Source: Zingiber officinale
Lineage: Eukaryota; Streptophyta; Magnoliopsida; Zingiberales; Zingiberaceae
DNA: 64,000 bases
Assembly: GCF_018446385.1 (NCBI RefSeq)
Contig: NC_055993.1
Coordinates: 66,852,631-66,916,630 of the forward strand
Direction of reading: 5' to 3'
The translations under genes were made by a program, and so were the position numbers. Under the pieces are notes generated by a model. That model was given only the letters and a program-made list of their open reading frames with translations, did no database searches and was not told where the DNA came from. Below are positions 1 to 59,500 of this stretch, in pieces (the first letter of the stretch is position 1; each line of letters starts with the position of its first letter).

Positions 1-2353
1 AAGCTGCAGTAATGAGGAGAAGTAAATATGCTTGAGCAGAAGTTGAGAAGTTAATATCTATAATTTTATAGAAGAAAGTGTTGATGATTGAATTGCTATT
101 GCTGTTAAGGAAATTTGATACAAAACATAAATACAAAACTGAAACTGGAAACCAATTCTACAATTTGGGTTTTGCAATTTGTAATCATAGCAGGGTTAAT
201 TTAAAATTTGATTGGAATTTCTGGATTTCTGAATGGACTGATTGAGTAGAGCAAGACTTAAAAGTTGTGAGGAGTTGTTGAAAATTTAAAAATGTGGAAT
301 TTTGTACAATCTGCAAATACGTAATGTGGAACTAAGTGTCATTTCCTGGAACTAGAAGCTGAATCTGTTTCTCAACTTGAAACTGGATACTGCAACAACT
401 GGAATTATAGCAGTTAGATTTCAATGCACATAATCAAGATTGAGTGGAAAATTTGTATGATCATCTTAGGCTTTGACACTTCTACAATTTCCTTGAAGCT
501 GAATTCAGTTATTTCCCTTGCTGTTTCTGAAGATTGCAGAATTCAAAATGTAATGGCATATCTAGAATTTTGAAATTGGATGTGGAATGCTGGATATGGA
601 ATCAGAGCCTAGCATTGTGCCAACTTTTAATGTTGGTTATGAACAGCAACAATTCGAAGTCCGACTCATAACTCTCTATTAACCATGCTGAGATTACTTT
701 GAATTCCAGTTGAGTTGTTACCTTGGAGGACTGCAGATTTCTGATAAAAGAGAAAATCAGAATACTTGAAGTTCTTGAATCTGAGTTAGCTGTGATGCAT
801 ATTTGAAGAGCATGCTTTCAGAATAAGGTTGTTAGAAGATCAGAGGTTTGACAAAAGAAGCAACAAAATGTTACTTATTGCATCAGGTGCAAAAATCAAT
901 CAATGAAATGTGGAAAAATGTGTATCAACAGAAAGTGTTGTGTGCCAATTGCAATCTGTGGTGTGCTTAATTCTTTGTGCAACTTTCTGAACATGACATA
1001 ACTAAAGTAAACTTATTATCTTTTCATTGGCAGATGACTTCCAGAATTACCAAAATTTGAATTCTCCATGATACAAGTTGCAACTACCTTAACTTTCAGT
1101 TCTGAAACTTAATTCAAGAATGAACTTCAAGTTATTTCAATACTTGAATTCATTTGAATTGAATTCTTGAGGCCAAAACTTGGAATCTGAATTTCAGAGA
1201 AGCTGTTTCTTGAAGTTGAGTTACTGAACTTGGGATGTTATTGCTGATAAAGCCTTGGAACTATTGGAACTATCTGATGTTTGCAAAAGAAACTGCAATG
1301 TGGGAAACAAAGAAAAATAAAAAAAATTTGTTCAGAGCCAAATTGGAAACTTGTTTTCAGACTTTTGGAGAAGCAAATACCATAATCTGTTCAACTCAAA
1401 ATTACATAAACTCGTATATGCAGATTTTCTTCATAAATCAACATTGCCTATAGTACCAATTTCTCTCTTCGCTGAACAGATTAATTCGGTATCTTTTAAG
1501 CCAGCAGATCAGAATTTGATTCTCTGATTTAAGCAGCTTAAATTCTTGTAGCTAGAGTTGACGTTGTAAATTGGTGAAGTTGCTAGACACTTTAACTATC
1601 CTTATCACTTACATTTCGTATGCTGAAAGAAATTAAAGAGGAATTTCTGAGTTGCTGCATGTGTGCCAAACATTCAAGCCATTTCTAACCAGAAACAGTT
1701 TGAATCTTTTCTCATATCAAGTTTGTGTTAAATGGTGCCTTATTTCAAACTAAATTCTTTGTGATTTTTGCTGAAGTGACTTTGAAACTTTAATTCTGTC
1801 TTTAGCTGCAGATTTTAAAAACCAGCCTTAGATTCTGTAATTGTGGAAATTTCAAAATATGAGTTCTATTTTATACCAGTGCAACATGTATGCATTTTCA
1901 AGCTGTTTAGGAGAGCTGGAAATTTTGTTATAAGCAGATGAAATGTGGCAAGATCTGCAAAAACTAGAACTTACAAGAAGCTACAGAAATGGAAATGGTC
2001 TGTAATTCTAATCAGTTTATATGCAAAAGCTTACTGAAGTTCTTGATTAGCAACTGATTTCTGGAACTTATCTTGGAAACTAAAAACAAGGACTTGATTT
2101 TAGTGAAACATTGAGCAAAGATTATTGAGTTGTCTTAACAGATGCTGCTGTAGGTGATCAATGAAGCTAATATTTATGAGTATAGAAGAAGAGAAGTTAA
2201 CAGCAGGGAATGTTCAGATTGACAAAGAAATAGAGAAAGTAATAAAATCTGCAGAATGAATATAAAACAGTGATTAAAGTGTGTCAAGAATTGGAAAGCA
2301 TGATGTTTTGTATTGCCCGAGACGGTCAATATTTTAAGTGTGGGTGGTGTCCG
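1..2353. other. AT-rich non-coding DNA
   Basis: No convincing gene is visible on either strand. The longest open frame, at 1235-1453 (72 codons), has no recognisable motif and looks like chance. The text is rich in short words such as TTGAATT and TGGAAC, which resembles long retrotransposon non-coding DNA, but no LTR end, primer site or polypurine tract could be fixed. It stops at the left edge of the inverted LTR pair. Confidence 0.5.
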
Positions 2354-3179
2354 CCTTTTTGCATGTCACGAGGCGCTCCAAATTAATAAAGATTGAAACT
2401 CACATAAACTAAATGAAACACGTGTAGTAAGGAGTCCCAAGTCATATTTTTCCAAGGTTAACTAGTGAATGTGTGTTAATTCTAGAATTAATTCACAAAT
2501 AGACTTCTTACATCATCAAGTTAACAACAATTAAGCATCATTGAATCAAATGAGTTAATTAAACTACCTTCCATTCAAGTTCATAGAAATAAAACTTTCA
2601 AGCATTCTACATTCACATTCTCAGTAGCTTAAACTCACACTTAAGTTCTCATTGCAATTACAAGAACCGAAAATAACATTCTATTCTCTAACACAATCAA
2701 TTTCAACATTCAACTCATTAACCAAGACTTAAATTCAAAGTTTCAATCAAGAATATTAATAGAGGTAGACAATGAAAATGTTAAGTGACTCATTCTACAT
2801 TCAAACTTAAGCACAGTACCACAACTCCAATGTATAGAATGAAAGTTACTTAGCTAAATACCAATCTAAACAACTAGTGTTAATCAGAATTCCCAATTCA
2901 AAACAAACACTAGATTGCAAACTAGTTAGTTAGCTACAATTAGTTACATACATAAAATTCAGATTACAAACTAAGTAGCTTAGTGTGGTTGATATTGCAG
3001 AAATCTAAATCAAAACAGAATTGGCATTGCAAAAGGGATTCAAACAAATAGAAATAGCAAAGAAATAAATCAGATCTGAGGATCTGAGCTAGTTTGAGAA
3101 CAAACCAAGAGAAAACATAAAGAATAATAAACCCTAAACATTCCACAAACTAGAACCGAAGCTAAAACCTCAACAATCT

Positions 3180-3555
3180 GTTGGAAACAGAGTAACCTCT
3201 GGGAAACGCCCTTCGGGTGACCACCGACAACAAACCAAGCTTCCGACTAATGCCACCTTCCTATCACAGCCTCTGGAAAACATCCTTCGGGCTCACAGAT
3301 CAGTTGGCACTCACATACCACGAAGAACAGCAGCTCAACTCTGAAATTTGCTTCATCTGATCAACTGATCAGATTGGTTCGAATGCAGCAGACGAAGTGA
3401 AGATGGAATGAATTTCGGAGCTACTGGGAAACACCCTCGTCCTCCGATGGCTAATGAACATCGCAGAGCATGGGAAACACCCTCTGCCTGGATCGCGGAC
3501 GGGAATCAAAATCGAACTCGCGGACTGGGAAACACCCTCGCCCGCAATCTGTTCA
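3180..3555 (-). repeat. Hairpin series in the left LTR
   Basis: Five short inverted repeats lie in a row, each enclosing a variant of the same motif (plus strand TGGGAAACACCCTCG). Stems differ from one hairpin to the next but pair within each: GTAACC with GGTGAC near 3190, AGCC with GGCT near 3275, TCGGAG with CTCCGA near 3417-3450, GCAGAG with CTCTGC near 3463-3490, and GCGG with CCGC near 3520-3545. The first has one mismatch. Function is unknown. The region lies downstream of the presumed promoter side of the LTR, so it could be part of the RNA leader. Confidence 0.6.
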
Positions 3556-5504
3556 CCGGGAGATGAACGCCGGTAGTTGGATGATCGCCAGCGATGAAGA
3601 AGGATTGCTCACAGATCTGAATGAGGGAATGGGAGGCTGCGGCGTCGCGGAAGAAGAATAGTGCAAATTGCGAACACGCCGAGATCAGTGTTCCTGTAGC
3701 TTCTCACGGGATTTAAACCCCTTCTCATCTGATCGGACGATCCAAAACAATCCGGGCCTTGATCAACGGCTGGATGAGGTCAGATCTAGATCAAAACTTC
3801 TGGATATTCATCAATGGACGAGATCTACTCCTCATTAGGTCAGATGGACCAGATGCTTGACGGATGGCTCAGATCTCTCCAATCTTTAATGGATGGTTCA
3901 TAACGCTCCAAGGTTTGATCGCCTCATTAAGCCCTTGATTTGAGTCCAAATGTGGTCTGATTTGATCGGGTTCATGACCCTTTTGATACCTACAAAATAA
4001 TAATCAAAGATTAGCATCAAATACCATGATAATTGGCTAAATTGCAATTAAGTCCAAATTCAAATGTAATTATGAAATATGATGTAAATGTGAGATTAAG
4101 CTATAAAAAGACCATTAAAAATGTGCATTATGAATCAAGATAATATAGCCAAAATCATGGTTATCAGTGGGGGAGGGAGTTCTTTTTCATAAATTGAGGT
4201 GAGATTGATTTAGCTTCTAAATGCTAAAATTGAAGTGCAAAAACAGTGTAGAAGAGAAGAGAAAATGGCAAATCAAGAATGTATCAAAGGTGAAGATAGA
4301 GTATCAAGATTTTTTGTTAGCCATCAAATTGAAGGAGAGGTTAGTTTGATATTTTGAATTGGTAATGGCAAATGGTATTCCTCTCTTTACACATCAAAAT
4401 GGTCAACTCATCAAGTATATTCCTCCAATACTTTCATCTTCTCATATTTTTCATTGAATACTTTTCTTTAGCCTATTTCATTCACTTTCATTGTTCTTTT
4501 TGATTCCATTTCAATTCTTGTTGATAAAATCTTTTTGATTCATGTATGCTATGTTCTATGGTGGTGGAGAAGTAAAAAATAAGCAAGCTTATGGTAGTGA
4601 AATGTTGTGAGTTGCATTGAGTGAGCTCCACTTATACACATGTTTGAGTGTGAGAGCTAGAATAGGTGAATACCTTGTGAGATTGCAACTTGCTTAATTT
4701 TTCAATTGGATTGAAACTACCATACCTACTGATTATTGTTTGGATTGTATTCATGATTGGTTGTGATCTTTAGATGGTCTTAGTTAAATTCTTTTACTAT
4801 CTTCTAGGTATTGCTAGGGAAATTGTGTGGAGATTATTTTTAGTTTTCTTGACTTGAACGGGACGTCCAAGATTAAGTGTGGGGGATTTGATAACCATGA
4901 TTTTTCTATATTATCTTGATTCATAATGCATGTTTTTAATGATATTTTCATAGCTTAAAGTCATATTTACTCTACATTTCATAATTTCATTCTATCTTGG
5001 ACTTAATTACAAATTAGCCTATTATCATGGTATTTGATGCTAATATTTGTTTATTATTTTGTAGGCATCAAAAGGGTCATGGACCCGATCAGATCAGGCC
5101 ATATTTGGGCTCAAATCAAGGGCTAATCAAGTCGATCAAGACTTGGAGTGTTTTGGACCATCCATTGAAGATCAGAGAGATCTGAGCCATCCGTCTAGGA
5201 TCTGGTCCATCCAAGCGACAAGGAAGCACATCACAACCATAGATGGAGATCCAAGGGTTTTGATTCAGATCTGAGTTCATCCAACCGTTGATCAAGCCCA
5301 GAAACAATCTGGACCATCCGATCAGATCTTAGGAGAGGTTTAAATCCTGCGAGAAGCTACAGTGTTGTTTGGGCTCGGTCGCAATTTTCTTCTACAGTGT
5401 ATTCATCTTCTTCACGCGATCCGAAGCTCCCGTTCTCCACTTCAGATCCAGATGTTAGCATTCTTCACCGTCGAGATTCCTGAGCTCCGGCGTTCATCGT
5501 CCGA

Positions 5505-5865
5505 GGGTACAGAGAGCGGCATAGGCGTTCCCAGTCCACAAGTTGATTTCTGATTCACATTCGGATCACAAGCGAGAGGCGTTCCCAGATCTGTGATCTT
5601 CATCAGTATCTGAGCTCAAGGGTGTTCCTAGAAGCTTCCGATCGCATTTCCGATTGCCACTCCACCAGCATCTCCAACCGATCTGATCAATCGGTTGAGT
5701 GAAGTAACTTCCAGATTCAACCTCTGTTTCTTCGTGCGTTATGGATTCCACTCGGGTGTGAGCTAGAAGGGCGTTCTCTGAGGCTATGAACATTCGGTTG
5801 GATTAGTTGGAAGCTCAAGATTCAAAGTCATTTGCCGAAGGGCGTTCTCAACGGCAATTATGTAG
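5505..5865 (+). repeat. Hairpin series in the right LTR
   Basis: This is the counterpart of the left-LTR series in the oppositely oriented copy. The shared core is AGGGCGTTCCCAG or close variants. Stems are GATCACA with TGTGATC around 5566-5600, GAGCT with AGCTT around 5610-5638, AGC with GCT around 5760-5790, and TTGCCG with CGGCAA around 5829-5856. A first member near 5517-5545 has only a weak stem. The stems are not the same as those at matching places in the other LTR, although the loop core is. Confidence 0.55.
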
Positions 5866-6817
5866 TGACAGCAGGGAGAAGAAGGTTTGCGGCAAGGATC
5901 TGTTGTGTGTGGAATGTTTAGGGTTTTAGTCTTCTTTATTCTTTCTCTTGGTTTGTTCTCAAACTAGCTCAGATCCTCAGATCTGATTTATTTCTTTGCT
6001 ATTTCAATTTGTTTGAATCTCTTTTGCAATGCCAATTCTGCTTTCTTGCTTGCAATTCTAACTTTGTTGAATTTATGCAATCCAATCCAACATTCAGCTT
6101 CTTTAGATGTTTACAATTTTGTTTCGATTACTAAGCTTAGCTAACTTCTGCCATCATATCCTTGATTTAAATTGTTAGATTAGTTTGTAATTCTGTTCTA
6201 TTTTGAATCAGAAGTTAGGATTGACACAAGTTTGTTTAGTTAGGTTTTGGTTATTTACTAGCTTATCTTTGTTCTCTGAATTGGACTTGAGGTTACTGAG
6301 ATCTTGTTTAAGTGTTGAATACTTGCCTTAAGTTTTTTATTGTTACTTCTATTCAATATTAATTTGTTTGAGCTTGATTGTTGGAGTTGGTTATGGATAT
6401 GAAATGGATGCTGTTCGAGTTGTATGAGTTTGTTTGGTAATTGAATTTAATTGTTACTTGATTGAGAATGGAAGATACAGTAGTTGAATAATTTGATTCA
6501 ATGTTGCATAAGAAACAGAATTTAGTTGATATTCACTTGAAGGAAATTCAATTTAAATCAATTCTATAACGCACATGCATCTACTAGTTATCCTTGGAAA
6601 AATATGACTTGGGACTCCTTACTACACGTGTTATTTTAGTTAATGTGAGTTTCCAATCTTTATCAATTTGGGGTGCCTCGTGACATGCAAAAAGGTTGAC
6701 ATTTAATGCACTATTTTCTTCTACCCACCAAGTGGTTGTACTCATACCTTTTGCTTTTCCCTTGACTTTTATGTTAGCAGATAGAAGAGGTGTTGTGTTG
6801 CCACTACAAGAAAAAAG

Positions 6818-7135
6818 CTAATAGACAACGCTTTTAAAGCGTTGTCTTTGTGTCTGAAAAAGCGTTGTTAAAGGCACTGTTGTTAAAAGTCTGCTCAACG
6901 ACAACGCTTTTAAAGCGTTGTCGTTTATAGCAAAGACAACGCTTTTTGCAACGCTTTAAAAGCGTTGTCGGTTTTTGCAAAGACAACACATAAAAAACGT
7001 TGTCTTTTTTAAAGACAACGCATAAAAAGTGTTGTCTTTTTAAAGACAACATAGAAAAAACGTTGTCTTTTTTTAGCAAAGACATCACTTTCACAATGTA
7101 TAAAAAAGCGTTGTCTTTCTTAGCAAAGGACAAGA
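6818..7135. repeat. Left subterminal repeats of the gene-carrying CACTA element
   Basis: About ten copies of AGACAACGCTTTT occur in alternating orientation, many as adjacent pairs forming short palindromes around an AT centre. They match the right-end array at 10755-10985. In the En/Spm family such subterminal motifs bind the TNPA-type protein. That role is inferred here. An open frame across this array is only a product of the repeats. Confidence 0.85.
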
Positions 7136-7432
7136 GGTTTTAAACTATTATCTTTTAATACCAAAGACAAATAATAAATAAATGAAAACGAATCTACTTC
7201 AATCAACAACATATTATTAAATAAACAACCAAGATAAATGTACAAATTATCATTCTTACACTTCTATAATAAACATAATTACTTGCATACAAAGAAATTT
7301 TAATTAGAAGGCACTCAAAACTACTTCTATCGACTACATCTTATTGCATGAACTTAAAGGATCTTGATAAATGCTACTTATCCTCTTGACTTAAATGTTC
7401 TTTAATCATTGAGTTTAACCATCTTCTCGCTT

Positions 7433-7530
7433 AAAGCTTTCTTGATAGTTCTTCGTTGAAGTACTTCTCAGTCACACCCCTGAGGTTCGGATGCAGTGCC
7501 ACATAACATATAGTTGTTGCTTTTGATGTC
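7433..7530 (-). pseudogene. TIC32-like short-chain dehydrogenase C-terminal fragment
   Basis: The minus strand encodes KATTICYVALHPNLRGV followed by TEKYFNEELSRKL. This matches the C-terminal part of plant short-chain dehydrogenases of the TIC32/retinol dehydrogenase-like group, which usually read GAATTCYVALHP, then KGVSGKYF. The catalytic Tyr-Lys region and the Rossmann fold are absent, so the piece cannot be an enzyme. It joins the E2F-derived segment directly near 7525. No start or stop belongs to it. I take it as a captured fragment inside the CACTA element. Family assignment is from memory of the motif. Confidence 0.6.
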
Positions 7531-7632
7531 ATCTTTGGTCAGGTAAAGCGGCCTGAAATTTTACAAGTACATATAGTTGTTGCTTTTGATGTCATCTTTG
7601 GTCAGGTAAAGCGACCTGAAATTTTACAAGTA
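7507..7632. repeat. 63-bp tandem duplication over the E2F exon
   Basis: The 63-bp unit at 7507-7569 is repeated at once at 7570-7632 with about one base changed. On the minus strand each copy includes an intron 3' end and the exon reading LYLTKDDIKS. The right-hand copy may be the original exon of the captured E2F fragment, and the left-hand copy leads into the dehydrogenase fragment. Confidence 0.85.
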
Positions 7633-8372
7633 ACAGAACATTTTTTTCATTTGTAGATGTTAGCAACATATGTGGGCAAATGCAAGAAAAAAATAACATA
7701 CTTTTGATTACTTTCTTCTTCAGTGAACACACTCATACTTTCTTGCATTTTGCTTTAAAACTAGAACATTTCTGCACACTATGCATATTATAGCATGTTA
7801 GGCATCAGTAGATAGAAGCTACATTTAGTATTGGAACCAAACCTGATGCACTCATCCAACTGGCATTCTTACGAGACTAGGTTTTCAACTTCTGTTTAAA
7901 GGGATGAAAATATTAAGCAAACTTTGATGATCTTGTATATCAACAAAAAATTTAACAGCAACTTACTCAAAACATGAAGATTTAAAATGGGTTTATTTGA
8001 TTTTGCCAAGAAAGCAATGATGAGTCATACCTGCAGCATTGGCATAAATCCTATCCCTTCAAGCACATTAGTGATGCCATAAATCTGCCTCTTTTGCACC
8101 TACATGTAAAATTCTAATTATGTATAAAAGAAGAAGAATTATGCAAACAACATATACTTCACCTCAAGTGTTTCTGCAGCTTTATTCAAGTCAAGAGTGT
8201 CATCTTGTGCATGTTTAAGTAGATTGATAAATCGTTTGGTAAAGAGCCCTGATGGTGAAGTTAGATGATGATGAAAAAGAATTCCCAGTGATAAAGAAAA
8301 CTTGACTTTTTTTTATGAAAGTGAGATAAATCAATCACCTAAAGAGCTATCATATCGGCAACTACCAACAAG
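7524..8372 (-). pseudogene. Captured E2F transcription factor fragment with introns
   Basis: Read on the minus strand, successive exon-like blocks match plant E2F proteins in order: CRYDSSL (about 8341-8372), GLFTKRFINLLKHAQ to AETLE (about 8165-8253), VQKRQIYGITNVLEGIG (about 8033-8101), VENLVS and QLDECIR (about 7843-7890), KMQESMSV to EEESNQK (about 7700-7757), and LYLTKDDIKS (7585-7616, and again at 7524-7553). The blocks span the winged-helix DNA-binding domain and the start of the dimerisation/marked-box part. They are separated by introns with GT and AG borders, so the copy came from genomic DNA. Decay is visible: the usual RRIYDITNV is RQIYGITNV, a TAA sits in the VENLVS block, and the expected KNRIRWKG block was not found. 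It is not expected to make a working factor. Confidence 0.85.
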
Positions 8373-10331
8373 AGAATCAAGAATCATATATATGTTGGAT
8401 GGTGACCAAAATATGATATCATCATGACTATAGCACTAATTTTTGCATGATTAGCGAGATTATTTTCATGATTAGTGGTAAATGGAAAATTAGATACAGA
8501 ATACTAATTCAAGATTCTCTATCATTTTCATTGACCATTTTATAAGACATGGAGATTGCTACTCAAACATTGCAGCAAAATGTTAAGCTAACTCATGCGA
8601 AATAGTACCCCTGGAGTTAATTTGTTCCAGTTTACTACATGGAAGTAAACTAAAGAATTCCAAAAGTCTACTTTGAAAAATTCATCTATAAATAAGTATT
8701 TTTTTAATTGAATTTAAAAAAAATATGATATCAATAGGACTTATGGACTAGTTCAGCAGGGGATTAGGATTTAGGTCCAATTGAAAAACTTGATGGGGTA
8801 TGGCTGAGTCACTTGACAATGACTAGATTTATTACGCTTTGCCACCTAACTAACAAAACTCTTTATATTGAATTTAAACTACTCATAAATAAAATAATTA
8901 ATGGTCAATCAATGATCCAATTAATATTGATTTATTGAGTTAGTAGTCATCAGATTGGTGGTCATACCTGGCATTGAGAAAATCACTGCTGAACAACATG
9001 TTGCATCTTAAGAAACAAATTGCAAATTTGCAAGCAAGAAAGCAGTCAACCAAAAGCTGTCACAAACAAAATAAAGTTTCTGTCATCTTGAGAATGTGTC
9101 ATATTAGATTACTACAAAGTCCATCTTAATTTGATAAACGATGAGTTGTATAAAATTTCAAGTCCAATGAATGTATCAACAACTATAGCATTATTGAGCT
9201 GCATAAATTTGCCTAACAGCCTAATAAAATAATGCAACTTCCATAAACATCTCTTGGCTCTTGTTAATCCCATGGTCTAACCAGATTTTCATATATAATC
9301 ATACCCTTACAGGAATGATTCCTCTGCATCCACATCACTATTGAACACTCTTATATGGAGGATAAAAGAGGAGATGTGAATTTATGGATACTGAATGCTT
9401 TAGTAGGTGTAATTGCTAAAGCAATTGTGGTTCATGAACTCATTTCATAATATCAAATAATTCATGCTGCATGCCACCATCATAATCAGAAAATTAAAAA
9501 AATAAGTTTTTACTAAATTTACAGTTGTGGGCAACAAAAGTACTTAGCTTCATCTTACTGCTCTTGGACACCTTGGATCTGCTATATCCAGCTTTTGTAG
9601 ATCCTTGGATCTGCTATATTTTTTGACTCATTTTTATGTCCAGCTTTCATATACTGTCATTGTAGATCCATGTTTGATGATTAATATTTTGATGCTCTCA
9701 ATTCAACTACATTAAGAAAGCCCATGAGTCAATTTAGAGTGCAAGTCTGCAAACACATATAAGACAAATATTTAGCATGCAAAACGAGTAATAGATACTT
9801 CTACATTTCATCAAGACCCAATAAGCACTCAATAAGAGCAGGTTAAGGAATCAAAGAAATTTCCTATTGGCCTTGTTTCAACCCTAGACAATTTATCATA
9901 ATTTTGTAAAATATCTAGAGACGCATTTACTTCACCATTCATTGGTGAATTGAGGGAAACATTGATATTTCCTGTAGTTTTCCTTAGCAGCGTCAACCTT
10001 TACAAACTCAACCAAATTATGACTTTAGTTCTATTAAAAGTAAGACAGGAAAAAAAATTGTGTATCAAAGATACTACGTAGCACATTCAAAATTGGGAAT
10101 ACCATGGATCCTAAAGTTAGAATGAAAGCTGCCATAGAAATCTGTACATCGCTAGCAGCAAGCAGCAACACTCGCGAGCGGCAGGCAACAGCGCACACGA
10201 GGCTACAAGCGGCAGGCAGCAACACTCGCGATCCCGTGAACTGCAAAGCTCGCGAGGACGCGAGCTTTCGAGGCTGCGATGGCACCGCTGGCGAGAAAAT
10301 TTCAGACAATTGGAAAATGAGATTAGGGTTC

Positions 10332-18641: not shown

Positions 18642-21600
18642 TTAATTTTGATAAGCTTCGGGAATATCATCTATATTTGTAGGCATTGAATATCTCTTCG
18701 TCAACATATTATATGAGTATCGAGGAGATGTTTTTGTCACTATGTGCCAACCTTTTGAGGTATTATCTATCACATAAAACACTTGCGATGCTTGAATGGC
18801 CAATACAAAAGGTTCATTTGATTTCAAAATCCGTTGACAATTTACACTAACAAAACCATATTTATCCACTTTGATCCCTCTTTCTCTAGAATGCACATCA
18901 AACCATTTGCACTTGAAAACCACAATTCGCCTTTCACCAAGAAATTGTAATTCAATAATATGTGATAACACTCCATAATAATCAATATTTTCTGCACCAT
19001 AGTTCCCAACAACGAGAATACCACTATTTTGTGTCCTTAGGCCCTTGCTGTGCTCTTCAGTATGGAATTTATATCCATTTACTTTACAACATACAAATGA
19101 CTTCCCATACTGTGTAGGCCCACGTGCCAAAGAAAGCAGATCTTTCATTTTTTTGGTTTTGTCATTTTTATGTAACCTCTCGACCTATCAAATTTGAAAG
19201 AAAAAAATTCTTACTCTCAAGATATAATTTATTAGTGAAAACAAAGACATGTATGTGCATTAAAAATCTCACTTACTCTAACTCTGAACCAGTTAATAAA
19301 TTGTTTATCCCATTCCTCATCGGACAAAACCAAATGACTAGAAGCACGGATTTGCAAGTAGTCACTACATAGGAAATTTAGAGGTTAATCATAATTAAAA
19401 AAAACAATATGGAAGAATAAGTTTATAGTTTCATACTTGTAAAATGATTGAACTTCTTCACAATTCTTTAATATGTAGATGTGAGCTCGCTCTTGGTCAA
19501 CACGATCCAAATTGCATGCTATTCCTGTTGATAACTCTTCAATGGATGAAAATATGGATAAACCATCATTACTTTCCATACATCCAAAATCAGATGTGTC
19601 GAAATATCTTGAGCATAAACTGATACACTCATTTGCTATATAACCCTCAGCAATTGATGCCTCTGGATGAGTTTTATTTCGAATATATGATTTGAAAGTA
19701 CTCAACTTTTGTTCTATTGGATACATCCATCGATATTGAACAGGTCCCCCAAGCATAGCTTCCATTGCTAAATGAATCGGCAAATGTATCATGATGTCAA
19801 AAAATGAGGGTGGAAAAATCTTTTCCAACTTACAAAGTGTGATAGGAATTTGTCTTTCAAGTTGTTTCAAGTCTTCCATCTTTAGTGATTTGGAACACAA
19901 ACTAGAAAAGAACATTGATAGCTCAACAAGAGCTTCATACACTGATTCTGAAAGTAATCCACGTGTTGCAAGAGGAATAAGATATTCTAGTAAGATGTGA
20001 CAATCATGACTCTTTAAACCTGAAACTTTGTTCTCCCTAACATTTATACAATCCGCAATGTTTGAACAAAAGCCATCAGGCATTTTTAATTGTTTAAGAA
20101 ATAAACAAAGCTGATGTTTCTCACTAGAGGACAATGCGTAAGGTGCAGTGGGAAACTCAAGATCATCTCCTATTGCAACAGGATGTAATTCAGGCCTTAT
20201 ATTCAAGAGTTGTAAATCAAGACGTGTTTTGTGATTATCTTTAGTCTTGCCTTTAATATCCATAATTGTTCCAAGAACACTGTCACATATATTTTTCTCA
20301 ATATGCATCACATCCAAATTATGCCTTAATAACAATGTTTCCCAATATGGTAGCTCAAAGAATATACTCTTCTTATTCCAATTATCACCCCGTTTATCAT
20401 GAGATATTTTTGTCTTTCTAGTAGTATCCTTACTTAAGATTATGCCTTCCAAATCCTGAACTTGACTTAAAATATCTTTTCCAGAAAATGATTTAGGCGG
20501 CAATCTCATTTCAACTGTACCATCAAAGGAATGCTTATCCTTGCGCCATTTGTGGTTTAATGGGAGATAACGTCGATGCCCCATATAACACTCTTTACCA
20601 CCATTTGTCAATCTCATTGAGCAAGTATCCTTATTACAACAAGGACATGCTAACTTTCCTTTTGTACTCCATCCAGATAAATTTGCATATGCCGGGAAGT
20701 CATTAATTGTCCACAACAAAGCAGCACGTAAAGTAAAATTTTGAGAAGTTGATGTATCAAAAGTTTCTACTCCAGTGTGCCACAACTCAATCAATTCATC
20801 GATCAACGGTTGCAAATAGATATCAATTGCATCTCCACTACTCTCTGGACCAGGAATTAACATGGATAAAATGAAGTTAGACAAGTTTATACACATTGAT
20901 GGTGGTAAATTATAAGGAATAAGGATCACAGGTCAAATGCTATATGTTGTTTTTGCATTTGCAAATGGTTGAAACCCATCACTTGCGAGACCAAGTCTCA
21001 CATTGCGAGCCTCTGAGGAGAAATCTTTATATCTTTCATCAAATGATTTCCATGTCATAGAATCAGCTGGATGCCTTAGAATTTCATCATCAACCCTTGC
21101 ATCATTGTGCCATCTCATGTAAGGGGCAGTTTTTGAACACATAAATAACCTTTGCAACCTTGGTTTTAGTGGGAAATAACGTAATATCTTCTTTGGAATC
21201 TTCTTTCCATTAGCTTTGAATTGAGTTCCCCCACTATGCCTATCCTCCTTCCATCTAGATACTCCACACACTTCACAAAAATCCAAGTTCTTATGGTCTT
21301 TCCAAAATAACATACAATTATTTTTACATGCATCAATCTTTTCATAAGAAAGGCCAATATCTCTAATAAACTTTTTAGCATCAGAATATGAATCTGGAAG
21401 ATCAAAATTTTCTGGTAATATTTCTTCCTTCAACAATTGCAACAACATGCTAAATGATTTATTTGTCCATTGTCCAACATTTTTTATATGAAGTAACTTG
21501 ATTAATGCCGACAATTTTGAAACCCTTGATCCTTGGTACAAAGGTTCTTTTGAATCATTTAATAATCTATAAAAAATTTTAGCTTCATCATTTGGCTCCT

Positions 21601-21964
21601 CACTAATATTAGCACACTTTGAATCATCATAATGTGGATGTAAATCTCTTAGAAGATCTTCCATTAAGTGATCATTATCATCTACTTCAGTTTCTGAATT
21701 GTGTAGTTCCAAATCATCCTCTGGCTTTTCTCCATGATGATACCAAAATCTATAATTTTGAAGTATTCCATAAACAATCAAATGCATTTTAACAGATTCC
21801 CTAGACCCAAATTGTGCATTTGCACATTTAACACATGGGCATCGAATTTCATTTGTTGCCCTTGTTCTTTCAAAAGCATAGTCTAAAAAATTTTCAATCC
21901 CCTGTCCATATGCTTCACCAAGTCGATCATTAATAAAATCCATCCATTTCTTATCGGGTGCCAT
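18642..21964 (-). CDS. TNP2-type CACTA transposase
   Basis: This is the enzyme expected to cut and move CACTA ends. ATG at 21962-21964 opens MAPDKKWMDFINDRLGEAYG, a Transpos_assoc domain with the metal-binding-like CPCVKC near residue 43. Exon 1 is 19437-21964, exon 2 is 19277-19364 and exon 3 is 18642-19184. The introns have GT/AG ends, and the joined length is 1053 codons including the stop. Domains in order are Transposase_21 core (ILIPYNLPP, LLWTINDFPAYANLSGWST, HNLDVMHIEKN near residue 550), DUF4218 (LKSHDCHILLEYLIP near 650, GGPVQYRWMYPIE) and DUF4216 (FKCKWFDV in exon 3). A single TGA at 20933-20935 (codon 344) sits where relatives have W in the YSxWPV motif. The second element in this window has YSCWPV there. 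Otherwise the frame is open. Confidence 0.9.
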
Positions 21965-42505: not shown

Positions 42506-44470
42506 TTATGATGTCAATCGAGAGAGGAGAGCAGCGTTGAGCTGCTCCTGCGTGTACACTTGGCTCGACATCATGACGGTGGCCTGCTGGATCATCAAGT
42601 CCTTGACAACGGATACACTCGCGTAGTGTACTTCGAGATCCAGCTCTTGCAGAGCAGCCGTCAGTTTCGCCGCCGGGTGGTTCCTTCTTTGGCTCTGTAC
42701 TCTTATCATGGCCTCTAATCCGAGTATCTTCACTTCCAACTCCACCCCGAGGCATCTGCTTGCGCCGTTCGTGGCCTTGTGGTTGCGCTCGGATGGTCGA
42801 GCAGGGGCGGATGCATGCTGCAGCTTGAGGGCTTCCACTTGGGCTTCTAGCTCCTCCTTCTCGGCGTCCAAAGTTTGGATCTTTGATCGGAGCTCTTCGA
42901 TGTAGGAGGCGGCGTCGCCGAGGAGGGAAGCTTTGTCCATCTTGGACACGTTGGGGACTACGGCGCGGAGAGCGTAGAATCGTTGGTTGAGCTTCTCGCG
43001 GCGCTGCCGCTCGGCTTCCACGTGGTTTAGAGGTTCATCGCGGCCATTGGCAGGCTTCCTCCCGCGCTTCTTTGGTCGCTTCTCCGGCTCAGCCACCCGG
43101 CTGCTCTCCACCTCCCGCATCGAGGCGTCGAGGTCCGATTGATCGGAATCTGGGCCGTCCGGGATCGCACCGCCGCCTGAGCACATCAATTGGCCGTTGG
43201 GTGGTGGTCTCGCAGGAGCCGACGTGAAGGACAGCATCGCCTCATCGTTGTTGGTGACGCTGGACACCGCCCCGGTGGATCTCTTGTTCTTCGTGTTGTC
43301 TGCTGCGGGAGCGGGGATGGCAGCGGTTTGGGGATGGGGGAAGAGGCTCCCTGCGGCAGGGGCTGGCGAGGAATTCTTCTTGCTGCCAGAAAAATTAAAA
43401 ACTTCCCTAGAATCCGGCTTGAACGATTGGGGGGCAATTGAAGGATTCGAGCTGAACTCTGCAAAATTGAAATCTTTGGAGAAGAAAGATTGGTTCTGCG
43501 GGTTATTCTGGTGCTGCAACTGCTGGTGATGTTTTTGGATTTGGATCGAAGAGCTAGGGTTTTGGGTGAGCATGCTAGAGCTAGGGTTGTTTTCGAATTG
43601 AATTGGGGGTTTTGTGACGGGCATGTCGGCGGTGGCGGATTCCTTCATTTCGACCACTGACGGATCCGTCAGCCAAAGCACTGACGGATCGGTCTCCCCT
43701 AGTTCGGGGGCTGAGGTAACTGCTGCAGATTGCGGTGTCAACCAGGACGAAGAGGCGCCGCCAACTGCGGCTGCGGCTGCGGCCGCGGGTGGAGTGTCCG
43801 GAGAGTTGAAGTTGGCGTGGATCTGGCCCATGATCTCGGCGCTGTGCAAGATGACATCGGTGGAACCGAGCTCGAGCACGCCGGAGCCGACAGGGACACA
43901 GACCATAGTCTGGAGGCCGAATAACTGCGCCTGGCAAGCTCGCTCGCAGGGCGCTGCGGCAAGGCGAGCCGCGCCGGCAATCCAGGAGGGGCTCCCGGCA
44001 CAGAAGACCTGGCCAGGGAGCCCGCAGCCGTTCACGAAGGACTGAGTCATGGACACAAGGAAGAACCACTCCGTGTCGGTGACTTCCTCATCGACGGCCT
44101 CGTCCGCCCCGGACGAGCCGCCTCCGGAAATGAGCGAGTTGAGCTCTCGCAGGACCCGCTTGCGGTACTCCTGCTCGTCGGGGGATGACGCGGTCCTAGA
44201 AGGGTGCTTCCGCTTGTGCTCCTCGCAGCCCTTGTAGTAGCCGTCGCCCCAGACAAGTAAGGATGAGCCGGAGTCTGTGTCGAGGGAGGACTGCCAGAAG
44301 ATTCCGTAGGTCCAGGAGTGTCGCGCGCCGTCGATGAGGGCCTGGAGGCGGTGCTGGAGGGAGTCCTGGTTGAAGGAGAGCGGCGGAGGGACCCAGGGGA
44401 AGCCCTGGAGGTCAGCGGAGGCTATGAAGCCGTCCATAACGGAGGAGTTGTCGTCGGTCCACAGGTTCAT
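42506..44470 (-). CDS. MYC2-like: MYC2-type bHLH transcription factor
   Basis: A nuclear regulator of jasmonate responses by family knowledge: MYC2-class proteins bind G-box DNA, are held by JAZ repressors and recruit MED25. The frame is intronless, which is usual here. An upstream in-frame ATG exists (44612-44614), but I choose 44468-44470 because it opens [15 protein letters not shown], the family's typical start, giving 654 residues. The bHLH-MYC_N region is about residues 33-225. It includes the JAZ-interacting part ([20 protein letters not shown]) and the acidic activation stretch ([15 protein letters not shown], near 127-141). A basic nuclear signal (KRPKKRGRK) is near 464-472. The bHLH spans about 478-540 with His483, Glu487 and Arg491, the G-box reading set, then a short zipper and an ACT-like C-terminus (573-650). 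The GC-rich coding DNA suggests a monocot. The exact paralogue (MYC2, MYC3 or MYC4) is not resolved. Confidence 0.95.
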
Positions 44471-44673
44471 GATCTCGTCCCCCGAGTTTAAGAGGGCCGT
44501 GAGAGGGAGCGGATGAAGAAGATGACGATGATGATTGCTGATTCGTCGGCTTTTACTATTTTGGCATTTTAGCCAAAATTTCAACTTCCCCCCTGCAAAC
44601 TTTTCTCTTTTCACTGTGGTCTTACCATAACGCCCTTCCCTATTTAATTATTACTCCAAATCCCATCAAAACT

Positions 44674-49527: not shown

Positions 49528-52500
49528 ATGGCTACCAACGACATTCCGACCGTCGTTCCGACCGCCATTCCGACAACCATTCCGTACGGAGAAAAGCCGG
49601 AGAAATTCACCGGAACCGACTTCAAAAGATGGCAACAGAAGATGTTGTTTTATCTAACAACGCTAAACCTTGTACGGTTTTTGCACGAAGACACGCCAGC
49701 CGCTACGGAAGGAAGTAAGGCTGCTAGCGATGCGTGGTCTCATGGAGATTTTCTGTGCCGCAATTATATACTCAACGCCTTGGACAACACGTTATATAAC
49801 GTATATTGTTCTCTGGAGACGGCAAAATCTTTGTGGGAATCCCTTGAGAAGAAATACAAGACCGAAAATGCTGGATTGAAGAAATTCATCGTCGGTCGGT
49901 TTCTGGATTTCAATATGGTGGACTCAAAAAGCGTCTCATCTCAAGTCCAAGATATGCAATTAATACTGCATGATCTGGACGCCGAAGGCATGAAGCTGAA
50001 CGAGACATTCGCAGTTGCTGCGGTAATTGAGAAGCTCCCTCCGTCATGGAAGGATTTCAAGAATTACCTAAAGCACAAGCAAAAGGAAATAGGGCTGCAA
50101 GACCTGATCCTGAGGCTACGAATAGAAGAGGATAATCGAAAGTTATCCGACTCCAGAGGAACCAAGCGGACTATAGACGAAATGTCCAACCTGGTCGAGC
50201 CAAACGCCAAAAAGCCGAAGAAGTTCAAAAGAAAGGCTCAAGCAAAGAAGTTCAAAGGCTCATGCTACAACTGTGGAAAGGCAGGACACCTATCCAAGGA
50301 CTGCAGACGCCCAAAGAAGCCAACCAAGGGGCCAAAGGATGTTGCGAATCATGTCGCAACCTCTCTTGAGGACTTGGATCTCACTGCGGTTGTATTTGAA
50401 GCCAACTTGGTGGATACCAACCCGAAGCAGTGGTTCATTGATACTGGAGCAACTCGTCATATCTGTTCCGATAAAGCGATGTTCTCCAAGTATACTCCGA
50501 TAAATGGCAGGAAGCTCTATATGGGTAATTCCACGACGTCGCCAATTGTTGGACTCGGAAAAGTTGTTCTGAAGATGACGTCCGGAAAGGAGCTAACACT
50601 CATTGATGTACTCCATGTTCCCGACATCAGTAAGAACCTAGTTTCTGGAGCGGCATTGGTCAAGGCCGGATTTAGGCTAGTGTTCCAGTCAGACAACTTT
50701 GTACTTACGAAGAATGGTGTCTTCGTAGGAAAGGGGTACCTAGAAAAGGGTCTATTCAAAATGGTTGTAATGCCTGTACTCCGAAATTTTGATGGTAATA
50801 AAATAAATGCTTCCAGCTATGTTGTTGAGTGTTTTAATTTATGGCATGATCGACTCGGACATGTGAATAATAATACTCTCAAACGTCTCGTCAAATTAAA
50901 TTTATTACCAAACGTCAATGTTGATGGAACACTCAAATGTGAAGTGTGCGTGGAAGCGAAAATGACGAAACTACCTTTTCATTCGGTGGAAAGGACGACA
51001 ACTCCTCTAGAGTTAATACATAGTGATCTATGTGACTTGAAATTTGTGCAAACTAGAGGAGGTAAAAAATATTTTATTACTTTTATCGATGACTGCACAA
51101 AGTTCTGTTATGTCTTTCTTTTAAGAAGTAAAGACGAAGCCCTAGAGGCGTTCAGAACCTATAAAACAGAAGTTGAAAACCAACTTGACAAACGAATTAA
51201 AATAATTCGAAGCGATAGAGGTGGAGAATATGGTGCACCGTTTGATGAATTTTGTACAGAATCTGGCATTATCCATCAAACAACGGCGCCTTACTCACCT
51301 CAATCAAACAGTGTTGCCGAACGTAAAAATCGGACACTAAAAGAAATGATGAATGCCTTGTTGATAAATTCAGGCTTACCTCAAAACTTGTGGGGGGAAG
51401 CAATATTATCGGCAAATCACATTCTCAACAGAATCCCTCATAAGAAAAATGATAAAACTCCATATGAACTATGGAAAGGCCGCGAGCCATCGTACAAATA
51501 CCTGAAAGTGTGGGGGTGCTTGGCAAAGGTCGAAGTACCTAAACCAAAGCAAGTAAAGATCGGACATAAAACGTTCGATGCGATATTTGTCGGATATGCC
51601 CATAATAGTAGTGCATATCGTTTCCTAGTTCACAAATCAGATATTCTTGATATACATGTGGGAACAACCATAGAATCTCGAAATGCGATATTCTTTGAAA
51701 ACGTATTCCCAAATAAAAAGGAAAACGTTGAAAGTGATAACAACGGAAGTTCAAACAAAAATGACGTTACCGAACTTAGCTGTTATAAAAGGACTATTGA
51801 CGATCAAAGTGAAGAGCCACGTTGTAGCAAACGGGCTAGAGTTGAGAAATCGTTCGGGCCAGATTTCATGACTTTCATGTCAGAAATGGAACCAAGAACA
51901 TTAAGTGAAGCTCTCTCTAGACCCGATGCTCCAATGTGGAAAGAAGCTGTCAATAATGAAATTGAGTCTATCATGAATAATCATACTTGGGAATTAGTAG
52001 AACTTCCTTCTGGTAATAAACCATTAGGTTGTAAGTGGATACTAAAACGTAAGTATAAAGCTGATGGATCAATTGACAAGTATAAGGCCAGACTTGTAGC
52101 CAAGGGGTACAAGCAAGAGGAAGACCTTAATTACTTTGATACATACTCACCGGTGACAAGGATTACGTCCATACGAGTGCTAATAGCCATTGCAGCACTG
52201 TATGACCTTGAAATATATCAAATGGATGTTAAGACTGCATTCTTAAATGGTGAGTTGGAAGAAGAAATTTATATGGAGCAACCCGAAGGGTTCATGGCTC
52301 CTGGAAATGAGAAAAAGGTGTGTCGACTTGTTAAGTCGTTGTACGGACTTAAGCAAGCGCCTAAACAATGGCACGAAAAATTTGACAAAATAATGCTGTC
52401 AAACGAATTCAGAATAAATGAATGTGACAAATGCATTTATGTCAAAAACACACCTGAAGGCTATGTAATTGTCTGTCTATACGTAGACGACATGCTAATA

Positions 52501-53430
52501 ATGGGCAGTAATCATGATGTAATCATGACTACAAAGAAAATGTTGACCAGAAATTTTGATATGAAAGATATGGGTCAAGCAGATGTTATATTGGGAATTA
52601 AAATTCTCAGGACATCAGAAGGGATAGTTTTAACACAATCCCATTATGTAGAATCTGTATTGAAAAAATTCAATGCGTACGATCTCTCTACAGTGAAAAC
52701 ACCTATGGATCTAAGTCAACACTTAGCAAAAAACCATGGTGAGACCATATCGCAGTTGGAATATTCTCGGATAATAGGCAGTTTGATGTATCTCATAAAC
52801 TGCACACGTCCGGATATTGCCTGTACGGTCAACAAACTGAGTCGTTTTACGAGAAATCCAAACGACACCCATTGGAAAGCATTGATGCGAGTTCTCAGAT
52901 ATTTGAAATATACTATGAACTATGGATTACATTATGGAAAATATCCCGCTGTATTGGAAGGATATTGTGATGCTAATTGGATATCAGATACAAAAGACTC
53001 CAAATCCACTAGTGGATATGTATTCATGATCGGTGGGGGAGCAGTATCTTGGAAATCCACTAAGCAGACTTGCATTGCTCGGTCAACTATGGAATCCGAG
53101 TTTATAGCACTAGACAAAGCAGCTGAGGAAGCTGAATGGCTGCGGAATTTCTTGGAAGATATTCCTAGCTGGGTGAAACCTGTGTCTACCGTACTAATCC
53201 ACTGTGATAGTCAATCGGCGATTGGAAGGGCACAGAGTAATATGTATAATGGGAAGTCACGACATATACGTCGTAGACATAATACCATTAGGCAGTTGAT
53301 CTCGAATGGAGTGATTGCAATCGACTATGTTAAGTCCAAAGATAATTTGGCAGATCCTCTAACGAAGGGGTTGAGTCGAGATCAAGTATACTGCTCATCA
53401 AGAGGAATGGGATTAAAAATCTACAACTAA
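49528..53430 (+). CDS. Ty1/copia Gag-Pol polyprotein
   Basis: One open frame of 1300 residues. Order of parts: Gag (residues 1-260, with [16 protein letters not shown] and a CCHC knuckle [14 protein letters not shown] at 246-259); aspartic protease ([14 protein letters not shown] near 302-315); integrase with its HHCC part (LWHDRLGH to CEVCVEAK, near 430-475) and core (near 490-650); reverse transcriptase ([22 protein letters not shown], near 840-1080); and RNase H (YCDANWISD, near 1160 to the end). Integrase before reverse transcriptase marks Ty1/copia. The sublineage was not settled. The frame looks whole, so the element is a recent arrival. Confidence 0.95.
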
Positions 53431-56532: not shown

Positions 56533-59500
56533 TTAAATATAAAAAACCTTAACGTACAAGTTAAAATCAAAGTTGTCGTCATCCTCCTCGTCCTCGTCCT
56601 CGTCATCATCATCATCATCAACCTCATGAAATTCACTGGCATCCACATTTATCACTACTCCGCTGGGATCTCGTAATGTTGGAATAATATATTCCTCGGT
56701 CTGAAATGTATTTACAACCTCCTCTTGTTGATATGCAATGTCTTCCCAATGTTCCTCTATTTTTTTCCGTGCTTTAGTTTTACAAACAGCCCACCAATCA
56801 ATTTTATCACGTTTCAAGCTAGGATATGAAGCATAGAACACTTGAATCGCTTGTTGTGCCAAAACAAAAGGTTCATATCTCTTATATAATCTTTTATGAT
56901 TTATTTCAACCAAATTATAACGTGGATGCACCTTCATCCCTCTTATAGGATCAAACCAGTGACACATAAATAAGATAACTCACATTTCTGGACCAGAGTA
57001 TTCTATCTCTATAATTTCATCCAGTAGACCATAAAAATCATTGCTTACACCTCCATCATTGGATGACTGAACACATACCCCACTATTCATTGTAGTCTTC
57101 CCTTTTCCATATTCTTGAGTATGAAAATTATATCCATTTATGAAATATGCTGGCCAAGTGCGTACTAGTGCTTTTGGACCCCAAGATAGATGAAATAACA
57201 TTTGATGTTCGAGGTGATCTTGATTATCATAAACCTAAACTCAAATGAATATGTTATTCATTTAAAAGTTAAAATATACTATACCAATACGGTAAATTAG
57301 AATACAAGGTAAAAATTACTTACATATGATTTGAACCAAGGTGCAAATTCTTGATCGCAGAAACGATCCAACTCTAGTGTTGGCATATCAGAATACAAGT
57401 TTTGAAAAATCTTATCATAAAAAATTGAATTATAACACCAAAAATTTACGATAAAAAAAATAAGAAAGATATACTAACTCAAAATATGGTGATACTTCTG
57501 GACAATTAAGTAAAACATATGTCTGGGCTGCTCGTCATTCTTGATCAGTTAAATATCTTTGCTTACATTGTCCACTCGATCGACCAAGATCATTAAAAAT
57601 TGAGAATATGTTCGTATTGGGATCAATAGGACCCTCATCATTTCTTCCAGGTCTCCGTCTTTTGGTCTGAATGTGAGGCTCAAAATAATACGATGCAAAA
57701 GTTGTTACTTCCTCCACAATGTATGCATTAACAATAGAGGCTTCAACATATGCCTTATTTTTTACTTTTTTCTTCAAATGATATAAAAATCTGATTGAAA
57801 TATAACAATTTGTATTAGATTAATATATATAAAAGAGTTATAAATTTACAACGCATTAATAACAAAGTATATAAGATAAAACAAAAAATACCTTTCAAAT
57901 GGATACATCCATCGAAAATGGACAGGACCTCCAACTTTGGCCTCGTATGGCAAGTGAACCAAAAGATCTTCCATTGAATCAAAAAATGAAGGTGGAAAGA
58001 TTCTTTCTAAATTACACAAAATAATTGGAATGTCTCTTTCTAACTTCTCCATCTGTGAATATCTCAAAACTGTTGAGCAAATATCATGAAGGAAAATGCT
58101 TAACTCCGTAATTGTACCCCATACAAAATTTGGTAAGAGTTCCTTAAAAGAAATTGGAATAAGTCTTTCCATAAATATATGACAATCGTGACTTTTCAAA
58201 CCAATCAATTTGAATTCCTTCATATCGATGCATCTCCCAAGATTAGAGACATACCCATCAGGAAATCTCAATGATTTCAACCATTCACAAACCACACGTC
58301 TTTGTTCTTTATTCAATGTATAAATTGCCTTTGGCTTTGGTCCCCTACTACTTTCATCCACATCAAGAGTGGGTCGTTTACAAATTAGTCGCATATCTTT
58401 TCTTGCATTCAAATTATCTTTTGTTTTTCCGGCGATATCCATCACTGTATTTATGAGATTATCAAAAACATTTTTCTCAATATGCATTACATCCAGATTA
58501 TGATGAATTAAATTACTATACCAATAAGGTAAATCCCAAAATATACTCCTTTTAGTCCATTTATGAGTGCTTCCATATTCATATGTTGTACCATGTGGTT
58601 CTTCAATAACAGATGGAAAGTGAAGCACTCTATACCAAATATCTTGACCTGTCAATCTTAATGGCGGAGGTCTTCTTTCAATTCTATTCCTAGTGAACTC
58701 ATCTTTATTCCTTCTGAAATTATGATTTAATGGAAAAAATTGTCTATGACAATCAAAATAACTCGGCTTTTTCCCATATTTCAATCTGATCGACTTTGAT
58801 CTCTCCATACATATTGGACAACCTAAGATTCTCGCAGTACTCCAACCAGATAGCATACCATAAGCCGGAAAATCATTAATGGTCCAAAGAAGAGCAGCCT
58901 TCATAACAAACATCTGATTAGTATAAACGTCATAGGTAGGAAACCCTTCATCCCATAGTTGTTTTATCTCTGCAATCAGTGGTTGCATATAAACATCTAT
59001 TAACTTCTTTGGATTTTTCGGGCCAGGCACAACTAATGTTAAAAACATATACGGTGTTTTCATGCACATCCCAGGCGGAAGATTATATGGAGTTAATATA
59101 ACTGGCCAACAAGAATACTGCCTTCCTAATTTACCAAATGGAGCAAAACCATCAGCACAAAGACCTAACCGAATGTTTCGAGTCTCTTTCGCAAATTCAG
59201 GATATGTTCTATCAAAATTTTTCCATGCCTCTGCATCTGATGGATGGCACATTAATCCCTCCTCTGTTCGATGATTTGCATGTCAAGTCATGTGTTCAGC
59301 AGTGGTCTTTGATGCATAAAGCCTTTGTAACCTAGGAGTTAATGGCAAATAAAATAACTGACTGTATGATTTACGTCGTTGTTGACTTCTTCTAGAGATC
59401 TTGTACCTATCTTGATTACAGAATCTACAAACAATTGCATCTGCATCATCTCCCCAATATAGCATACAACCGTCTCTGTAAACATCAATTCTTTCCACCG

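Follow-up and report, generated by a model that had tools for sequence, protein, structure and literature searches.

Why should a row of short hairpins keep one loop while the stems that carry it differ from hairpin to hairpin? The question is raised by two long terminal repeats (LTRs) in the ginger genome, which lie in a stretch of 64,000 nucleotides from Zingiber officinale (assembly GCF_018446385.1, contig NC_055993.1, forward-strand positions 66,852,631 to 66,916,630; this whole stretch is called the window, and coordinates are given in its own numbering). A first-pass annotation, made from the letters of the window alone, had proposed that the stems change while remaining paired, as selection on structure would leave them. 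Comparison of the two LTRs with their relatives in the genome supports this proposal at four of five hairpin positions, through pooled, decoy and subfamily controls, and supports it again in a second group of LTRs. We therefore regard selection on pairing as well supported by the sequence comparison.

Hairpin slots share a tip but differ in their stems

The two window LTRs are relatives within one large plant family, probably of Ty3 type, and stand in opposite orientations. Each has five hairpin slots, H2 to H6, that are homologous and in the same order in both LTRs, ten hairpins in total:

3192..3221, minus strand: H6 left, stem GTCACC/GGTTAC; an alternative fold is preferred in this copy
3268..3293, minus strand: H5 left, stem AGCC/GGCT, core GGATGTTTTCC
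3415..3447, minus strand: H4 left, stem TCGGAG/CTCCGA; fold z -2.24
3463..3487, minus strand: H3 left, stem GCAGAG/CTCTGC; fold z -2.01
3519..3547, minus strand: H2 left, stem around GGGTGTTTCCC; fold z -3.47
5516..5540, plus strand: H2 right, core AGGCGTTCCC; the stem is broken in this copy
5564..5598, plus strand: H3 right, stem GATCACA/TGTGATC
5612..5638, plus strand: H4 right, stem GAGCT/AGCTTC
5759..5787, plus strand: H5 right, stem AGCT/GGCT, core GGGCGTTCTC
5832..5857, plus strand: H6 right, stem TTGCCG/CGGCAA; fold z -2.37

All four stem pairs that had been singled out in the first-pass annotation are present (GCAGAG/CTCTGC at 3463-3468/3482-3487, TCGGAG/CTCCGA at 3415-3420/3442-3447, GATCACA/TGTGATC at 5564-5570/5592-5598 and TTGCCG/CGGCAA at 5832-5837/5852-5857), and the differing stems described there at matching places of the two LTRs are seen at the homologous slots H2-H6. 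A further candidate, H1 (GGCGTTCATC), was counted as a slot at first and then dropped; it has no inner stem of the GGG/CCC type.

Relatives were collected from the 3.09 Gb genome with three queries, namely the right LTR, the left hairpin zone and a third copy, which gave at least 44, at least 40 and at least 41 matches when the best 40 were scored of 4,590, 1,740 and 1,413 candidates, respectively. The working set consists of 60 LTR copies (L001-L060) chosen by similarity to the LTR or the hairpin zone, and of 20 stretches at exact motif matches, hand-picked among the matches listed on C1-C3. The extract of the left LTR (the place of L031) was kept out of the 60-copy alignments, and cores within 18-20 bases of the end of a stretch were excluded from the core collection. 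Identity between copies of different subfamilies goes down to 61%. Over about 850 bases, identity is 92.6-94.6% within each of six presumed same-strand LTR pairs and within the opposed pair L015/L016; usual plant substitution rates would put this at some 2-6 million years.

Throughout this set the hairpins have the form of a module in which a conserved tip, made of a 3-bp inner stem and a loop of 4-5 bases that is mostly YGUU(U), sits on a variable outer stem. There are 337 such cores in 80 of the 80 copies and at least four in 59 of them, counts that give no unbiased frequency in copies chosen by similarity or motif. The slots are spaced mostly by 51-58, 43-48, 149-153 and 70-74 bases, and the inner stem occurs in the compensated variants GGG/CCC, GGG/CTC, GGA/TCC and GAG/CTC. 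Among 71 non-redundant hairpins, with arms that stay below 80% similarity, the inner stem is flanked on its 5' side by four bases, Y (in 61), S (57), R (65) and A (63), and on its 3' side by three, A (51), R (61) and A (37), after which the outer stem begins. Entropy is 0.44 bits in the cores, 0.66 in the outer stems and 0.68 in the rest of the zone. As judged from these alignments, together with the pairing tests below, it is the tip and the pairing that are kept, and the sequence of the outer stem is free. The exact motif GAGGGTGTTTCCCAG has 398 matches in the genome versus 4 for its reversed control; when three mismatches are allowed, the window shows no excess of the motif (10 observed, 10.1 expected).

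The far-diverged LTRs L062, L069, L080, L087 and L094 also carry cores at like spacing, on wholly different stems (for example CTCGC/GCGAG in L087 and CAGAT/ATCTG in L094).

Stems are kept paired across copies

At the expected register, the arms of the 71 non-redundant hairpins form 3.07 of 5 pairs versus 2.07 when arms are re-paired (z 7.4; 0/20,000). The regular expression that finds the cores lets in about 10 chance matches among the 71, and the stricter 61 hairpins still give a z of 7.2. The other seven registers of the same hairpins give z values from -3.0 to 3.3, of which the neighbouring two account for 3.3 and 1.0 and the remaining five are at most 0.3. When 24 cores from 16 further stretches are added, z is 8.2 (88 hairpins), and it is 4.7 at a 65% similarity cut (51 hairpins) and 3.7 at a 55% cut (39 hairpins). 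As a control, 389 decoy mini-hairpins with other loops from the same LTRs have a z of -3.5 at the expected register.

The signal is also seen slot by slot. Between 11 subfamilies, arms pair better within than between subfamilies at H3 (p 0.0008), H4 (p 0.008), H5 (p 0.032) and H6 (p 0.0044), with 0/5,000 for the five slots jointly, and in single copies H3-H6 each beat 500 of 500 re-pairings. A scan of about 855 aligned bases that was blind to the motif (columns below 50% occupancy dropped) placed H3 (5581), H6 (5846) and a pair of motif-less arms (5708) at the top for native-over-swapped pairing, and ranked H4 (5624) first by native energy. Relative to a neutral null obtained by simulation, the fractions for the difference are 0.0005 at H3, 0.002 at H6, 0.008 at 5708, 0.066 at H4 and 0.041 at H5, and the fraction for the energy of H4 is 0.0000 as printed; this null contained extreme energies from failed duplexes and is used by rank alone. 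The additional arms are:

5693..5722, plus strand: covarying arms GGTTGA/TCAACC that enclose no loop motif; scan peak at 5707-5708

Tips agree within an element and a second LTR group carries another tip

Taking the commonest real tip for each slot and subfamily, the edit distance between tips is 1.52 between slots within a subfamily, versus 2.06 for different slots and 1.87 for the same slot of different subfamilies, and 0 of 300 shuffles were as close as the tips within subfamilies. Tips thus resemble the other tips of their own element more than their counterparts elsewhere.

A second group of LTRs came to light among 16 stretches at primer-binding sites (PBS), which were drawn from the top of the match list with a fixed upstream length, so that LTRs of other length can miss the zone. 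Four of the 16 have at least three YGUU-type cores (L087, L094, L096, L097), three have four or five GGAGGTTTC-type tips (L086, L089, L091) and nine have neither. L091, in which no YGUU-type core was found at first, aligns to L042 at all five slots, and each slot reads GGGAGGTTTC or GGGAGATTTC, that is, a GGUU (or GAUU) loop closed by A-U. Tips of the GGGAGGTTTC type number five in L086, four in L089 and five in L091, and sets of them occur in 0 of the 60 aligned copies and 0 of the 20 motif stretches. The exact sequence GAGGGGAGGTTTCC has 1,094 matches in the genome versus 27 for its reversed control, and gaps of 43, 72-74, 149 and 268 among the matches listed repeat the slot spacing of the first group. 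With 10 stretches picked among these listed matches, the second group comprises L086, L089, L091 and L101-L110, related LTRs in which GGGAGGTTTC replaces GGGTGTTTCC; YGUU-type tips are absent from 11 of the 13 copies, with one each in L089 and L091.

The stems of this second group are paired as well. From 24 tips that the regular expression found in the 13 copies (it misses some slots), 14 non-redundant hairpins form 3.43 of 5 pairs versus 2.22 (z 3.9 as the best of eight registers; 0/1,000), and their duplex energy is -6.56 versus -4.79 when re-paired (0/1,000). Examples of their stems are CTGAACAA/TTGTTCAG in L107 and CTCA/TGAG in L103. On the evidence of these alignments, the tips switch together at most or all slots of an element.

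A TATA-like box stands upstream of the array

In 59 of the 60 aligned copies the motif T(T/A)TAAA stands in register at 5339-5344 (52 TTTAAA, 7 TATAAA), about 170-490 bases upstream of the hairpins, and in the 18 copies printed it is followed by GAGAAGCTACAGTG or a near variant:

3712..3717, minus strand: TATA-like box TTTAAA of the left LTR, placed by sequence and alignment
5339..5344, plus strand: TATA-like box TTTAAA of the right LTR

Because this box is upstream in so many copies, the array is probably in the RNA leader. If the box is the promoter, the hairpins would start about 140 bases into the RNA, within the repeated (R) or unique 5' (U5) region of the LTR, and we infer that the array functions at the RNA level, from this strand and within the leader. 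The guess of a leader RNA structure or packaging signal in the first-pass annotation is compatible with this position.

On the sense strand of 5091-5870, ATG occurs at about half the frequency of shuffled sequence and the sequence is CAT-rich, on both sides of the TATA-like box. ATG depletion was considered as a sign of a leader and set aside, being equally present upstream of the box.

The elements are probably of a Ty3 type and may be non-autonomous

The left LTR, which is 1.82 kb long and antisense, has GTGGG on each flank, and at another locus (L019) the window sequences 1574-2344 and 4167-4888 align contiguously with a 5-base overlap, as an empty site:

2345..4166, minus strand: left LTR, solo (TGATAACC...GGACACCA), placed by sequence, with GTGGG on both sides
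2340..2344 (left copy) and 4167-4171 (right copy), no strand: target-site duplication GTGGG; L019 is the uninterrupted site
4875..4888, plus strand: polypurine tract (PPT) AAGTGTGGGGGATT adjoining the 3' LTR; the same or nearly the same tract precedes the LTR of several other copies
4889..6705, plus strand: right LTR, the 3' LTR of the element that hosts the solo LTR; its right end is inferred from L003

Since GTGGG flanks the left LTR and L019 aligns unbroken across its insertion site, the sequence identifies it as an independent solo LTR nested in the internal region of the element to which the right LTR belongs. The two opposed LTRs that had been reported from the window are thus indeed there, and they are not the pair of one element.

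The copies have the hallmarks of LTR retrotransposons, with ends of the TG...CA type, TGATAACC...CACCA, a PPT, a PBS and target duplications of 5 bp (ACATG in L020, ATAAC in L029, GTGGG in the window). In L036 and L059 the LTR end CACCA is followed by AATTT and then by the PBS TGGCGCCGTTGCCGGGGA, and other copies have near matches. Calypso and Diaspora likewise have a PBS 5 bases past the LTR that is complementary to tRNA-Asp (PMC1142308). Through their LTR ends, their 5-bp duplications and this position of a tRNA-Asp-like PBS, the elements fit the Athila/Calypso type of Ty3 retrotransposon. The available descriptions of Athila, Calypso and Diaspora mention no hairpin array (PMC1142308), which is a feature of the present LTRs.

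Three arrangements among the copies were noted in passing. L016 has the reverse complement of the PPT region of the family after its LTR end, where a PBS is expected, and it faces L015 at a distance of 8.8 kb. A stretch of 97 bases in front of the L003 LTR (L003 1390-1486) matches window 6706-6801, which follows the right LTR, at 96%, about 40 kb away on the same chromosome. L083 holds a 2-kb tandem duplication (1-2030 and 2170-4200, 98% identical) within one element.

Internal regions were searched for protein-coding capacity in four stretches. Pfam detects neither gag nor pol domains in any of the 14 frames of at least 70 amino acids (aa) in L061, the five of at least 90 aa in L082 and L083, or the four of at least 70 aa in L100, and no reverse transcriptase that would place the family was found in the four stretches by Pfam on the scanned frames or by tblastn with a query of another Ty3 lineage. 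If the elements are non-autonomous, the features still under selection would be those that are read in trans, namely promoter, PBS, PPT and packaging tag.

A proposed packaging array read in trans and its alternatives

We propose that these LTRs carry about five RNA hairpin modules, most likely in the 5' leader of the element RNA, and that in each module a fixed tip, with a short inner stem and an xGUU(U)-type loop and reached via a small internal loop, stands on a paired outer stem that is free to vary. Several copies of one tip would in this way be offered to one RNA-binding protein. Reading by one protein is suggested because the tip is common to all slots, the stems are free and the tips are switched together, and a single shared reader would require such a concerted switch at most or all slots. 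The likeliest reader would be an autonomous partner's Gag/nucleocapsid, by which the element RNAs would be packaged and dimerized in trans. Gag as the reader and packaging as the step are conjectured, and we prefer the proposal as a whole only tentatively, at slightly less than an even chance. An extension, in which the tip is a docking code, is possible and somewhat more doubtful. In this extension non-autonomous Athila-like elements would keep about five copies of the tip, maintained by the Gag of a common autonomous partner, and groups with another reader would have switched YGUU(U) to GGUU at most or all slots.

BARE elements belong to the Ty1/copia family. Among them there is a precedent for packaging in trans by the particles of a partner with conserved cis signals, in that BARE2 of barley has no Gag of its own, retains signals for dimerization and packaging, and uses BARE1 particles for its packaging (PMC3735527); this is another element family, and no tip-conserved hairpin array is described in the available text. 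Leader hairpins with a common short loop are also known from retroviruses, where GACG tetraloops are used in packaging and heterodimerization (PMC516450). The function of those hairpins was tested, whereas the present xGUU(U) loops, in about five copies within the LTR, are known from sequence alone; conserved paired structure with conserved loops, as in such packaging leaders, is found here at H3-H6 and again in the second group. The structured leader of Ty1 is likewise needed for dimerization and packaging, with rescue by compensatory changes, but it is built of a pseudoknot and one pair of complementary (kissing) loops rather than of repeated identical tips (PMC5454406).

Several results weigh against this reading. 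H2 does not covary, as 475 of 500 re-pairings were as good in single copies and p is 0.63 between the 11 subfamilies. A G-test on 44,715 column pairs (columns below 60% occupancy dropped) with a parsimony-placed phylogenetic null shows no structural pair above noise; its signal is dominated by subfamily splits, and the one pair at E<0.05 is non-pairing. The covariation expected in the first-pass annotation on aligned copies is thus borne out at H3-H6 and fails at H2 and in the column-pair test. A fixed-register test on subfamily majorities is mostly not significant (lowest p 0.0165, at H6), because the register shifts by one base between subfamilies, and the best register of the second group is off by one from that of the first. 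In the blind scan, position 5231, which is no slot, outranks H5, and there are swings of the opposite sign to +1.36 (5378) versus -1.88 at H3. Minimum-energy folds contain the outer stem in eight of the ten window hairpins (the exceptions are H2 right and H6 left), and they contain the tip as drawn in five (H5 right, H6 right, H2 left, H4 left and H5 left). Versus dinucleotide shuffles, four of the ten reach z <= -2 (-3.47, -2.37, -2.24 and -2.01) and the remaining six fold no better than shuffles (-1.09 to +0.53), so the shuffled-fold check foreseen in the first-pass annotation comes out in favour for four hairpins and as ordinary for six, and single-copy folding is weak evidence. Changes to G-U versus A-C number 110 to 82 (p 0.051), with a pooled G-U z of 1.2, which does not settle the strand or the RNA level. 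Finally, the tblastn search that finds no gypsy pol match in L061, L082, L083 or L100 had as its query the gypsy frame of the window, which is of another Ty3 lineage, and had no positive control.

The same covariation and tip evidence, and the position downstream of the TATA-like box, would be expected if the leader hairpins were read not by Gag but by the ribosome or an RNA-binding protein of the host, in translation, splicing or export, and structured leaders of plant pararetroviruses do control translation and replication (PMC5902531). Such a reading is unlikely, if the most serious of the competitors: the four internal stretches offer no gag-pol domain to be translated, and ATG depletion, equal upstream of the box, gives it no specific support. 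Rather less likely are palindromes that act as DNA, as sites for transcription factors or chromatin proteins or as cruciforms in the regulatory region of the LTR. Here the G-U counts leave the strand unsettled, and palindrome arrays are known from plant LTRs, since Sireviruses, of Ty1/copia, carry short inverted repeats in several copies per LTR (PMC2829016, Bousios et al. 2010). That precedent qualifies the statement in the first-pass annotation that no described element has this layout, which stands insofar as the repeated unit in Sireviruses is the stem: a single palindrome recurs there, in most cases with a CGG-CCG core, and its array precedes the TATA box (PMC2829016). In the present LTRs the tip is repeated, the stems differ between slots (with 71 arm pairs less than 80% alike), the PBS is tRNA-Asp-like, and the array is downstream of T(T/A)TAAA, a putative promoter, in 59/60 copies. 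A sequence-specific DNA site should moreover conserve its stem, whereas these stems vary like their surroundings and keep their pairing. In the literature searched, which covered few subscription papers, we found no account of plant LTRs that carry an array of conserved tips on variable stems.

The remaining explanations are each very unlikely. Hairpins in maize Copia LTRs accompany more small RNAs (PMC10760457), so that recognition by the host small-RNA machinery, or a by-product of silencing, might be considered, but maize Ty3 elements are generally without a clear peak of such structures (PMC10760457), the present arms are just about 5-8 bp, and the conserved tip and compensated stems would go unexplained. 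Chance and shared ancestry with no selection on pairing, which is slightly more improbable still, would account for the mostly unremarkable single-copy folds, the negative G-test and the negative H2, but not for the re-pairing, sliding, decoy and subfamily controls or for the second LTR group; it is because the evidence comes from the comparison of copies, and not from single-copy folds, that it reaches beyond chance. Least probable is a tiny mobile hairpin that inserts around the core, a copying process by which inverted flanks arise, or gene conversion of one slot by another. Tips that are alike within an element on arms that differ between slots would suit such processes. However, slot order is kept, as mostly is spacing (43-48, 51-58, 70-74 and 149-153 bases), in the subfamilies compared, the slots align vertically between subfamilies, and conversion tracts would need to end at the tip, since the arms differ. 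Both the mobile hairpin and the flank-building mechanism had been raised in the first-pass annotation, with a search for the loop motif outside the family as a check; 20 of 20 sampled exact motif matches lie in related LTRs, three of them with just 51-185 bases of similarity, and we set both ideas aside.

Known RNA classes were considered as well. A retrozyme or hammerhead, or any other Rfam RNA in the LTR, was rejected as an identity, as the Rfam search of 2300-6800 by E-value gave two matches, neither of which was a ribozyme or reached its gathering score (best E 0.85). No tRNA was found in a scan of 1-9000, and blastn of the hairpin zone against a plasmid collection gave no match.

Other features of the window

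Just beyond the right LTR, 6802-7140 has CACTACAAGAAAAAAG and then many subterminal repeats of the AAAGCGTTGTC type in both orientations, which resembles one end of a CACTA-type transposon. Frames for tnp2-type transposases lie at 19388-21964 and 57849-59252 (Pfam Transposase_21). An open Ty1/copia polyprotein frame of 1300 aa, with gag, integrase and reverse transcriptase domains by Pfam, spans 49528-53427, and a bHLH-MYC transcription factor gene with an open frame of 702 aa is on the minus strand at 42509-44614.

Implications for plant LTR retrotransposons

How the RNAs of plant LTR retrotransposons are chosen for packaging is poorly known, although such elements fill much of large plant genomes. 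The array described here is a concrete candidate for a cis signal, and its natural stem variants together with the natural switch of the tip make up a ready test panel. The comparison also indicates that RNA structure in LTRs can be detected by comparing families even where single copies fold like shuffled sequence. If the proposed reading is true, plant LTR retrotransposons would have a packaging array of several copies that is supported by covariation, and the tip would be a pass that gives parasitic elements access to helper particles across deeply diverged families.

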